Origin: Clostridia bacterium
GTDB lineage: Bacteria; Bacillota; Clostridia; Christensenellales; Aristaeellaceae
Assembly (NCBI GenBank): GCA_017397765.1
Contig: JAFQIB010000005.1
Location: 1-33,214, forward strand
Direction: 5' to 3'
DNA: 33,214 nt
Of the stretch, positions 1-33,214 are shown one piece after another; within the stretch, counting starts at the first letter, position 1, and every line of letters begins with the position of its first letter. The notes under the pieces are model-generated. The model was given only the letters and a program-made list of their open reading frames with translations, was not told where the DNA came from and made no database searches. The position numbers and the translations under genes are program-made.

Positions 1-139
1 GCTCGCGCCGACTAGCGAGAGCAAATGCTTGCATTTGCCGAGCATAGCCAGCGCCGGGCTTGTCCCGGTGATGGCCGAGTGACCAGTGAGTGAGTGCAAA
101 ACCTCGACAAAGTGCCTATAGCACTTTGTCGATACGCTG
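1..139 (+). repeat. Palindrome-rich intergenic repeat, copy A (inverted relative to copy B)
   Basis: This segment matches the reverse complement of 32898-33036 at 133 of 139 positions by eye, with no gaps. Differences fall at 4, 43, 46, 55, 67 and 80. It contains several inverted repeats: a perfect 12-bp stem with a 5-nt loop at 104-132 (TCGACAAAGTGC / GCACTTTGTCGA), a near-perfect palindrome at 21-38 (GCAAATGC-TT-GCATTTGC), and a long imperfect stem at 47-75 with loop CTTGT. Differences 55 and 67 are partners in that stem (C-G here, T-A in copy B). It has no plausible coding frame. The element probably extends left of base 1, because copy B continues as a GGCGC/GCGCC palindrome where this copy is cut. 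Confidence 0.9.
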
Positions 140-174
140 AGGCGCATCCTATACTTGCCTTGTAGGATGCGCCT
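140..174. other. Perfect 12-bp hairpin abutting repeat copy A and overlapping the -35 region
   Basis: AGGCGCATCCTA (140-151) pairs perfectly with 163-174 around an 11-nt loop. It starts exactly where the conserved repeat ends. A different 12-bp hairpin occupies the same position beside copy B. No U-tract follows on the + strand, so it is not a convincing terminator in that direction. Its 3' half overlaps the presumed -35 element of the two-component operon. Confidence 0.7.
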
Positions 175-213: not shown

Positions 214-891
214 ATGTTTACCATTCTGGTTGTAGAGGACGATCTGACGCTGCAGCGCATGATGTGCGCCTTTTTGGGCATGAACGGCTATCGCACGCTG
301 CCCGCCGCCAACGGTCAGGAGGCGCTGGACGCAATCGAAAAGGTAATGCCGGACATGGTGATTGCGGACGTGATGATGCCCGTCATGGACGGCTGGGAGC
401 TGACGGAGGAGCTGCGCAGCGCCTATCCCCTGCTGCCCATCATGCTGGTCACCGCCCGGGACTCCATCGAGGACAAGCGAACCGGTTTTACCGCCGGTGC
501 AGACGATTATCTGACCAAGCCCGTGGATCTGGACGAGCTGCTGCTGCATGTGCAGGCGCTGCTGCGCCGCAGCCGGGCCATGACCAGCCACCGCATCACC
601 ATCGGTGAGACCGTACTTGATTATGACAGCCTGACCGTGCGGCGGGGCGATATTCTGCTGACGCTGCCCAAGAAGGAGTTTTTCCTGCTGTTCAAGCTGC
701 TCTCCAGCCCGATGCAGATCTTCACCCGCCGCCAGCTGATGGATGAAATCTGGGGCATGGATTCCGACAGCGACGAGCGCACGGTGGACGTGCATATCAA
801 ACGGCTGCGCGAAAAGTGCGAGGTGTTCCCGGATTTCTCCCTCGTGACAGTCCGCGGCCTGGGCTATAAGGCGGTCAGGAACGATGCTTAA
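214..891 (+). CDS. OmpR/PhoB-family response regulator
   Basis: The 225-residue protein has an N-terminal receiver domain (about 1-115) and a C-terminal winged-helix DNA-binding domain (about 125-222). Receiver residues are in place: acidic pair D9/D10, phospho-acceptor D52 in IADVMMP, T80 and K102. The wHTH carries the usual TVDVHIKRLREK recognition-helix region and the terminal VRGLGYKA wing. It should be activated by phosphotransfer from the kinase encoded next, which it overlaps by 8 nt. The ATG is preceded by AAAGGAG and a strong promoter. Length is normal for the family. The signal sensed and the target genes cannot be read from the sequence. Confidence 0.95.
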   Translation: MFTILVVEDDLTLQRMMCAFLGMNGYRTLPAANGQEALDAIEKVMPDMVIADVMMPVMDGWELTEELRSAYPLLPIMLVTARDSIEDKRTGFTAGADDYLTKPVDLDELLLHVQALLRRSRAMTSHRITIGETVLDYDSLTVRRGDILLTLPKKEFFLLFKLLSSPMQIFTRRQLMDEIWGMDSDSDERTVDVHIKRLREKCEVFPDFSLVTVRGLGYKAVRNDA

Positions 892-31394: not shown

Positions 31395-32843
31395 ATGAAG
31401 AAACCCCTTTGGTTCATCCTCATCGTTCTCACGCTCCTCTTGGTCATTTCTGCCCAGGCAGAGGGAACCGTCACCTACGAGGCAGAGGAAGCTGTCATCC
31501 ATGGCAGCCTTCGGGTTAGCGCTGAAGCCGCTGCTTCAAATCGGAAAGTGGTCGGTTTGTTCCAGAATCAGGAAGATTCGCTGGTGTTTACCGTTTCTGT
31601 TCCCGCCGAAGGATTGTATGATTTGTCCTTCGTCACCAAGGGCGTGGGCGGAAACAAGACCAACAACGTCCTGGTTGACGGCAAGCAGATCGGCACGATC
31701 CAGTCTATCTTTTTCTATTCTCCTTCTGAAATCAAGGGGGTTCACCTCACTGCAGGCGAGCATCAGATCGCCCTGACCGTATCCGGCGGCTATTTCAATG
31801 TTGACTGCCTGAAGGTTTCCCCTGCCCCCACCATTCCCAATAGCGTTTTCAAGGTTGAGCCCACGCTCATCAACCCCAACGCGACCGAGGAAGCCCGCAA
31901 ACTTTTCGCCTACCTGTGCGAATCCTACGGCAAGGTAACCCTCTCCGGTCAGTTCTGCGACAATGGCTTCGACGGGCCCGAAATCAAGGCTGTGTATGAA
32001 GTAACCGATAAGTATCCCGCCATTCTGGGCCTGGATATGATGGATTACACGCCCTCCCGTCAGGCCATGGGCGGCCGCAGCACCGCCGTGGAAACTGCCA
32101 TTGATTATCACAACGCCGGCGGCATCATCACCTTCAACTGGCATTGGGGCGCTCCGAAGCAATACATCCGGGCAGGCGTGGACGGAAACGGCAATCCCAA
32201 CTGGTGGGGCGGCTTCTATACCGCCAATGTCAACTATGATATCACTACTATTCTCGACGGCAGCGACGCCGAGGGCAAGAAGCTGCTGGACAAGGATATT
32301 GAAGGCATTGCCAAGCAGCTGCTGCGCCTGCAGGACGCCGGCGTGCCGGTGCTCTGGCGGCCGCTGCACGAGGCTTCCGGCGGCTGGTTCTGGTGGGGCG
32401 CCAAAGGCCCCGAGCCCTGCAAGCAGCTCTGGATCTATCTCTACGATCAGCTGACCAACGTCTACGGCTGCAACAACCTGATCTGGGTCTGGAACGGCCA
32501 GGCTGCCGACTGGTATCCCGGTGATGAATATGTGGATATCATCAGCGAGGATATCTATGCCGACAAGCGCTCCTACAGCGCACAGATCGGCAAATTCATG
32601 GAAGCGCTGGACTACACCGACACCAACAAGATCATTGCCCTGTCGGAAAACGGCGTCGTCTTTGATATGGAGCAGGTGCTGCTGACCAATGCCCGCTGGG
32701 CCTGGTTCAACACCTGGAGCGGCGAGTTCATCCAGCGGGACGGCCAGTTCTCCGATGAATACACCGAGTATGATATGCTCTACTTCACCTACAACAGCGA
32801 TTATGTCATCACCCTGGATGAGCTCCCCGCCCTCTACGAGTGA
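31395..32843 (+). CDS. Secreted GH26 beta-mannanase-like enzyme with N-terminal CBM
   Basis: The 482-residue protein has a signal peptide (1-22, ending ISAQA) and a CBM35/CBM6-like module (about 26-145, starting VTYEAEEAVIHG). A GH26 catalytic barrel follows (about 155-480). The acid/base Glu is E326 in WRPLHEASGGWFWWG and the nucleophile is E418 in IIALSENG. Other family marks are GLDMMDY, ITFNWHWGAP and NLIWVWNG. GH26 enzymes mostly cut beta-1,4-mannans; a few act on beta-1,3-xylan or mixed glucans. It lacks a transmembrane tail or sorting signal, so it is probably released. It is divergent from the uptake operon and shares its control region. Confidence 0.93.
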   Translation: MKKPLWFILIVLTLLLVISAQAEGTVTYEAEEAVIHGSLRVSAEAAASNRKVVGLFQNQEDSLVFTVSVPAEGLYDLSFVTKGVGGNKTNNVLVDGKQIGTIQSIFFYSPSEIKGVHLTAGEHQIALTVSGGYFNVDCLKVSPAPTIPNSVFKVEPTLINPNATEEARKLFAYLCESYGKVTLSGQFCDNGFDGPEIKAVYEVTDKYPAILGLDMMDYTPSRQAMGGRSTAVETAIDYHNAGGIITFNWHWGAPKQYIRAGVDGNGNPNWWGGFYTANVNYDITTILDGSDAEGKKLLDKDIEGIAKQLLRLQDAGVPVLWRPLHEASGGWFWWGAKGPEPCKQLWIYLYDQLTNVYGCNNLIWVWNGQAADWYPGDEYVDIISEDIYADKRSYSAQIGKFMEALDYTDTNKIIALSENGVVFDMEQVLLTNARWAWFNTWSGEFIQRDGQFSDEYTEYDMLYFTYNSDYVITLDELPALYE

Positions 32844-32897: not shown

Positions 32898-33036
32898 CAG
32901 CGTATCGACAAAGTGCTATAGGCACTTTGTCGAGGTTTTGCACTCACTCACTGGTCGCTCGGCCATCACTGGGACAAGCCCAGCGCTGGCAATACTCGGC
33001 AAATGCAAGCATTTGCTCTCGCTAGTCGGCGCAAGC
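32898..33036 (-). repeat. Palindrome-rich intergenic repeat, copy B
   Basis: This is the reverse complement of 1-139 with six differences and no gaps. The 12-bp stem with 5-nt loop is at 32905-32933, and the region 32898-32940 is identical to copy A. The imperfect stem equivalent to 47-75 of copy A carries a T-A pair where copy A has C-G. The stem with loop CTTGT is thus conserved through two matched changes. Confidence 0.9.
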
Positions 33037-33203
33037 GCCTCCCTCGTGCAACGACAAGTCGTTCTCCCGGCCGTTCGTTCGTGTAAGGAAGCTTTTCCTG
33101 ACGGAAAAGCACGAAAATCGCCGCGCAGGGGCTTCGCCCCGTTTAACCGCCCCGAAGGGGCTCGCCGATTTCCGATCTAAAGTCAGAGGGCTTGCGAGCC
33201 CTC
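33028..33203. other. Dense hairpin cluster continuing repeat copy B
   Basis: There is no coding frame, but six short inverted repeats lie one after another: GGCGC-AA-GCGCC (33028-33039), AACGAC-AA-GTCGTT (33050-33063), GCTTTTCC-TGAC-GGAAAAGC (33091-33110), GGGGC-TTC-GCCCC (33128-33140), GCCCC-GAA-GGGGC (33149-33161) and GAGGGCT-TGCG-AGCCCTC (33186-33203). CGAAAATCG (33112-33120) can also pair imperfectly with CGATTTC (33166-33172), enclosing two of the hairpins as a three-way junction. The start of this cluster overlaps copy B, and the left end of the window is cut where the matching part of copy A would lie. Confidence 0.6.
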
Positions 33204-33214
33204 CGACACCTCCC

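Follow-up and report, generated by a model that had tools for sequence, protein, structure and literature searches.

Elements of the IS1182 family are among the closest described systems. In staphylococci, IS1272/TnSha1 of this family insert into hairpins, several of which are confirmed terminators, and the sites described in PMC4923244 have no primary-sequence consensus. The targeting of palindromes by some IS1182 members is attributed in the same paper to Siguier et al. 2015. For the family, ISFinder direct repeats of 2–60 bp are quoted (PMC7335449), and IS1182 is named among the families that are over-represented between convergent genes (PMC9208149).

The window, that is, the whole 33,214-nt stretch analysed here, carries a 139-nt repeat at either end, in opposite orientations (copies A and B). 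To judge from its ends, its flanks and a related IS in the same genome, this repeat is very probably the right portion of a non-coding MITE (about 200–340 bp), mobilised in trans by a palindrome-targeting DDE transposase of the IS1182 family, mainly at intrinsic terminators. The relevant features of the window are as follows.

1–139, plus strand: copy A, the right part of a MITE of about 336 bp (L037); its left part lies on contig C47 of this genome, at the contig end
8–78, plus strand: module 1 in copy A, comprising hairpins P2 and P3 without the 5' strand of P1; a stand-alone repeat elsewhere
104–132, plus strand: right-end hairpin, overlapping the right inverted repeat
125–139, minus strand: right terminal inverted repeat CAGCGTATCGACAAA (minus-strand reading)
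140–174, plus strand: terminator-like hairpin AGGCGC...GCGCCT followed by GTTTATG, the right copy of the target duplication of copy A; the left copy is at the C47 end
214–891, plus strand: response regulator, a neighbouring gene, followed by a histidine kinase (884–2257)
31395–32843, plus strand: glycosyl hydrolase family 26 with CBM35, a neighbouring gene with a hairpin after its stop codon
32867–32897, minus strand: hairpin GCGCCCTCCGGT...ACCGGAGGGCGC, the right-hand member of the target duplication around copy B; its partner is C95:58239-58267
32898–33214, minus strand: copy B of the MITE, minus its first 19 nt, which are near the end of contig C95
32959–33048, minus strand: module 1 in copy B, complete including P1 (model score 82.9 bits)

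Extent and forms of the element

The 139-nt query gives 52 matches in its own draft genome (3.13 Mb, 158 contigs), of which 12 are the right-end palindrome matching itself and 40 are copies of the element or fragments. An earlier note on this DNA had guessed that the genome holds many copies, and the repeat indeed occurs in at least 40 places (E < 1e-20), some of which are the two halves of a copy divided between contigs; the figure is a lower bound, since 40 of 95 first-look candidates were scored. The same note took the 139 nt to be the unit, which was too short. The complete element is about 336 bp long and bounded by imperfect terminal inverted repeats; the 139 nt are its right part, and the real left end lies about 200 nt further left, outside the contig of copy A. 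In copies away from contig ends, the common left end at this distance is CAGACCATCAACAAACCC or CAGACTGTCAAAAAAGG, and the right end, read on the other strand, is CAGCGTATCGACAAA or CAGCGTGTCGAAAAA in most copies. Sorted by ATC or GTC, the two end types match in 16 of 21 elements and are mixed in the other 5. A degenerate end pattern, CAGNNNRTCNAMAAA, has 133 matches in the genome, as against 4 for the reversed control.

The build is modular, as copies occur both with and without module 1. Forms with this inner module are mostly 322–336 bp long, while those without it, together with one that has an unrelated interior, measure 199–247 bp. The MITE is therefore a composite, some copies of which hold an extra P1-P2-P3 module of about 90 nt that is itself interspersed and is probably a mobile folded repeat of the genus. 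One far longer copy of 1715 bp (L058 441-2155; G000:C38:8040-9754) has genes for a SAM methyltransferase and a GNAT acetyltransferase near its right end and is flanked by a duplication that is a perfect 27-bp hairpin; this may be a case of cargo capture.

The element also accounts for contig breaks in the draft genome. Both window copies continue on other contigs, copy A on C47 and copy B on C95, whose end overlaps the window end; the contig ends of the window are thus assembly breaks inside the element.

Hairpin target sites and a candidate transposase

At the flanks of the element, the duplicated target is a whole hairpin of about 20–38 nt. Of the 28 elements whose two flanks lie on a single contig (27 MITEs and one IS), 26 show this, namely 25 MITEs and the IS. 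The 26 consist of 22 that were listed first (with alignments for 19) and four that were added after a looser reading of the right end (L072, L073, L075 and L077); one-end-truncated copies (L038, L041, L043, L074) and copies cut by contig ends are excluded from the 28. The two exceptions are L046, with a 12-bp duplication within a palindrome, and L065, with 4 nt at most. Both window copies carry the hairpin duplication once the adjoining contigs are read. For seven split copies, the hairpins allowed the halves on different contigs to be matched (the C47 end with the window start, the C95 end with the window end, and five more), and all agree.

In a fold test entered only by elements with a detectable duplication, 36 of 38 strand readings (19 elements) were better than all 100 simple shuffles. 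A T- or A-rich flank, as expected for intrinsic terminators, is present at 21 of 22 sites, compared with 4256 of 20000 random places (21%). The duplicated hairpin is typically an intrinsic terminator; one of those 22 targets (L062) is a module-1 hairpin instead. It is hardly credible that the flanking hairpins are terminators carried or captured by the element rather than target duplications: this would fit the finding that the flanking repeats are hairpins in nearly all copies (26 of 28), but each site has its own hairpin, which matches on either side of the element, and the IS behaves likewise.

Two sites have a more complex history. In L062 (380-594; G000:C36), the MITE lies inside hairpin P2 of a module-1-like copy, and that hairpin is duplicated. 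In L060 (305-503; G000:C12), a 199-bp element with similar ends and an unrelated interior adjoins the end of another copy; the same hairpin is present more than twice, so that this site has apparently been hit twice.

A search with NF033551 (IS1182) finds one intact gene in the same genome, L082 (415 bits, intact ORF), with the Pfam domains DDE_Tnp_1_6, DUF772 and DDE_Tnp_1. The IS has the ends CAGCCTGTCAAAAAAGGTCG and CAGCTTGTCAAAGAAGCC, and its target duplication is a perfect 25-bp hairpin, AAACCACCCGTCAAACGGGTGGTTT. At its right end an inverted sequence stands beside the terminal repeat, as in the MITE. Its left end shares 19 of 20 bases with the GTCAAAAAA subfamily of the MITE (L042, L066), and its right end agrees with that of L062 at 13 of 16. 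The end of the other subfamily, CAGACCATCAACAAA, is found before an incomplete IS1182-family gene of a different genus in the family (L084, end type CAGACCATCAACAAAG); here too a hairpin precedes that end. Given that L082 matches it in left end and in duplication type, the element is most probably a MITE mobilised by a transposase of the IS1182 type. The statement in the earlier note that the repeat matches no IS family therefore finds no support: the full element has IS1182-type ends, and its own genome holds an IS of that family with the same left end and duplication type. What tells against the IS1182 reading are the five MITEs with mixed ends, the two exceptional flanks (L046, L065) and the low gene count: one intact IS1182-family gene was seen in this genome, and matches above the family cut-off occur in 2 of 40 genomes. 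IS1634 was also considered as the parent and rejected; it has no match in the same genome, and 2 of 21 genomes matched, one of them above the cut-off and in another family.

A mechanism can be proposed on this basis. With a terminator hairpin either single-stranded or extruded as a cruciform, the transposase would join the ends of the element to the feet of this hairpin, and filling in of the long stagger would copy the whole hairpin. Insertion would be nearly harmless, since the host gene would retain one full terminator with its T-run. The element is a clear natural case of a bacterial mobile element that targets a shape, the hairpin, and not a sequence, with that same shape as its duplication. 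As target and duplicated shape coincide, the way in which IS1182-type transposases cut becomes testable.

The three-hairpin module

Relatives match the 139 nt mostly as two separate pieces, at about 8–78 and 81–139. The first piece is part of a unit of about 90 nt with three hairpins (P1, P2, P3) that is found alone across the genus, singly or in tandem; the period is about 91–93, and 12 of 81 arrays or singletons are tandem. In the module, blocks of unpaired bases are conserved and a GCTTGC loop mostly so, and an internal loop has GA mismatches. Covariation is strong. In an alignment of 68 copies (A1), both sides of a pair are changed in 221 cells, as against 60 in shuffled controls, and the covariation score is 0.370, compared with at most 0.067 when the structure is slid. 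A second alignment of 138 model hits (A2) gives 464 double-change cells against 124 shuffled and a score of 0.414 against at most 0.060 slid, with a lean to A1, from which the aligning model was built; for both alignments, the shuffled and slid controls only partly remove the relatedness of the sequences. The covarying pairs include those of P3 (window positions 55/67) and of P2, at whose base G-C and A-U switch (73 and 48 of 125 distinct rows).

These data also place the differences between the window copies, which share 133 of 139 positions, as had been counted before; the six that differ are 4, 43, 46, 55, 67 and 80. Positions 55 and 67 are indeed partners in hairpin P3, with a compensatory change (C-G in A, T-A in B), and the family alignment ranks this column pair among the strongest covarying ones. 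A further stem proposed in the earlier note, CTCGC/GCGAG with position 4, has no support in the family alignment, which puts position 4 in the P1 loop; the single-sequence fold of copy A, contrary to this, does pair that region. The change at 43 turns a G-C into a G-U pair according to the family alignment, that at 46 disrupts a T-A pair, and the one at 80 falls in none of the covarying helices. With only 2 of 6 differences compensatory, the two-copy argument for selection was thin but pointed in the right direction. Folding z scores are −5.4 for copy A and −3.2 for copy B with 12 extra bases. Of the earlier interpretation, conserved folding and high copy number stand, while the 139-nt unit and the lack of an IS family do not; the covariation, well above the controls, belongs to the separable module 1 and not to the whole repeat. 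Module 1 supplies a strongly covarying structured repeat without an Rfam family match: at the gathering score there is no match to Rfam, and at E<=5 there are three weak ones far below that score.

In principle, such a fold could be selected in a functional cis-acting RNA, for example in translation or mRNA stability, for which the MITE would be merely the carrier. This reading is possible, if rather doubtful. It would account for covariation far above both controls, for the conserved unpaired blocks, GCTTGC loop and GA mismatches, and for the position of the module relative to genes: a Shine-Dalgarno sequence plus a start codon follows within 45 nt in 35 of 81 cases, whereas the other side of the module gives 10 of 81 and random places give 414 of 4000 (10%). 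The test is crude, as it overlooks cases at the ends of loci and may count chance starts; 46 of 81 failed it. On the strand read, G-U mispairs are commoner than A-C in A1 without P1 (22 vs 6) and in all of A2 outside P1 (37 vs 20); G-U pairs are nevertheless rare, and after rows are collapsed at 85% identity the counts are 16 vs 8 outside P1 (p 0.15) and 8 vs 1 in P1. RNA action is weakly favoured by these counts. Paired changes can also arise through DNA template switching in palindromes, which weighs against selection as RNA, and copy number, tandem arrays, one empty site and the inversion in two copies (L073, L075) favour a mobile repeat. Any role of the folding may lie at the level of RNA or of DNA.

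That module 1 moves separately from the MITE appears from those two copies (L073, L075; G000:C21, C43), where it is inverted and located elsewhere in the MITE, with a longer P2 stem. The gene ahpC provides an empty site. Among 18 genus genomes, 7 have a DNA match to it, one of which is a 29-base chance match. Five loci carry the module (one as two tandem units), L246 has the same gene junction without the module and is the empty site, and in L247 ahpC lies in another context, likewise without the module. The empty site reads TTAAGGAGG-GTAA and filled sites AGGAGG-module-AGGAGG-, with the Shine-Dalgarno core doubled, which suggests that the module duplicated the Shine-Dalgarno sequence at ahpC. 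This doubling concerns one locus, with similar, often imperfect repeats seen elsewhere by eye. One of the filled loci and the empty one belong to a single draft (G010, 71% complete, 5% contaminated), so that they may represent two strains.

It is unlikely that module 1 represents a new class of structured mobile element, one that inserts into Shine-Dalgarno sequences, regenerates them through duplication and spreads both alone and inside terminator-targeting MITEs, its fold being selected as RNA. If so, safe-site strategies at start and at stop signals would be combined in one lineage. By eye, module 1 also lies just upstream of tRNA-like sequences (L137, L140) and of a possible RNase P-like RNA (L138).

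The distribution of the module is narrow. It was found in 3 of 248 genomes of an order-wide draw, its own included (stricter filters, 17 candidates scored per genome), and in 67 stretches of a genome-contig collection, all titled as Clostridia or Clostridiales MAGs except one Candidatus Faecaligallichristensenella; both results contradict a wide taxonomic spread. The relatives that carry it are titled Clostridia MAGs, many with animal-gut sample names. An origin from a virus or phage was rejected, the MITE core pattern being absent from the viral collection and the module-1 pattern present in 4 viral stretches; these are from IMG/VR (L251-L254, pattern and model search).

In most aligned copies GTAG precedes the P3 palindrome, as in GTAG-tagged REPs, which raises the question of whether a RAYT (Y1 tyrosine transposase) moves the repeats as palindromes of the REP/BIME kind. 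This is very improbable. Y1_Tnp occurs in 5 of the 16 genus genomes searched, the present one included, and was not found in G006 (21 module-1 matches) or G011 (15 such matches), a co-occurrence judged on drafts of 68–96% completeness; the MITE, moreover, resembles the DDE element L082 in its inverted ends and hairpin duplications. The present genome has one Y1 tyrosine transposase match (L172; PF01797; G000:C63:34787-35143), with one internal TGA.

Comparison with known systems

In the literature, no description of this MITE or of module 1 was noticed, nor one of a MITE duplicating a whole terminator, a weak negative that covers mostly freely accessible papers. The targeting of hairpins or palindromes has already been reported for the IS1182 family, and the MITE is therefore a variant on a known theme. 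Like IS1272/TnSha1 as described in PMC4923244, it has hairpin or terminator targets and would depend on an IS1182-family transposase. Unlike IS1272, for which the same paper describes deletion of part of the hairpin and no target duplication, the present mobile unit, which is non-coding, duplicates the hairpin in full.

For module 1, a repeat that is BOX-like or REP-like, no known family was found. REP/BIME sequences, as outlined in PMC3733652, share with it a palindrome behind a GTAG tag, intergenic location and many copies; module 1 differs in being a three-hairpin unit and in having no RAYT link in the genomes searched. In build, the composite resembles the pneumococcal BOX element as presented in PMC3049150, also an interspersed repeat with flanking modules and an optional inner module that would fold if transcribed. 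The inner module of BOX can be repeated in tandem, whereas module 1 is present or absent in the MITE and forms tandem arrays in its stand-alone copies. The MITE, unlike BOX as depicted there, targets mainly terminator hairpins, and the likeness drawn here is an analogy of build.
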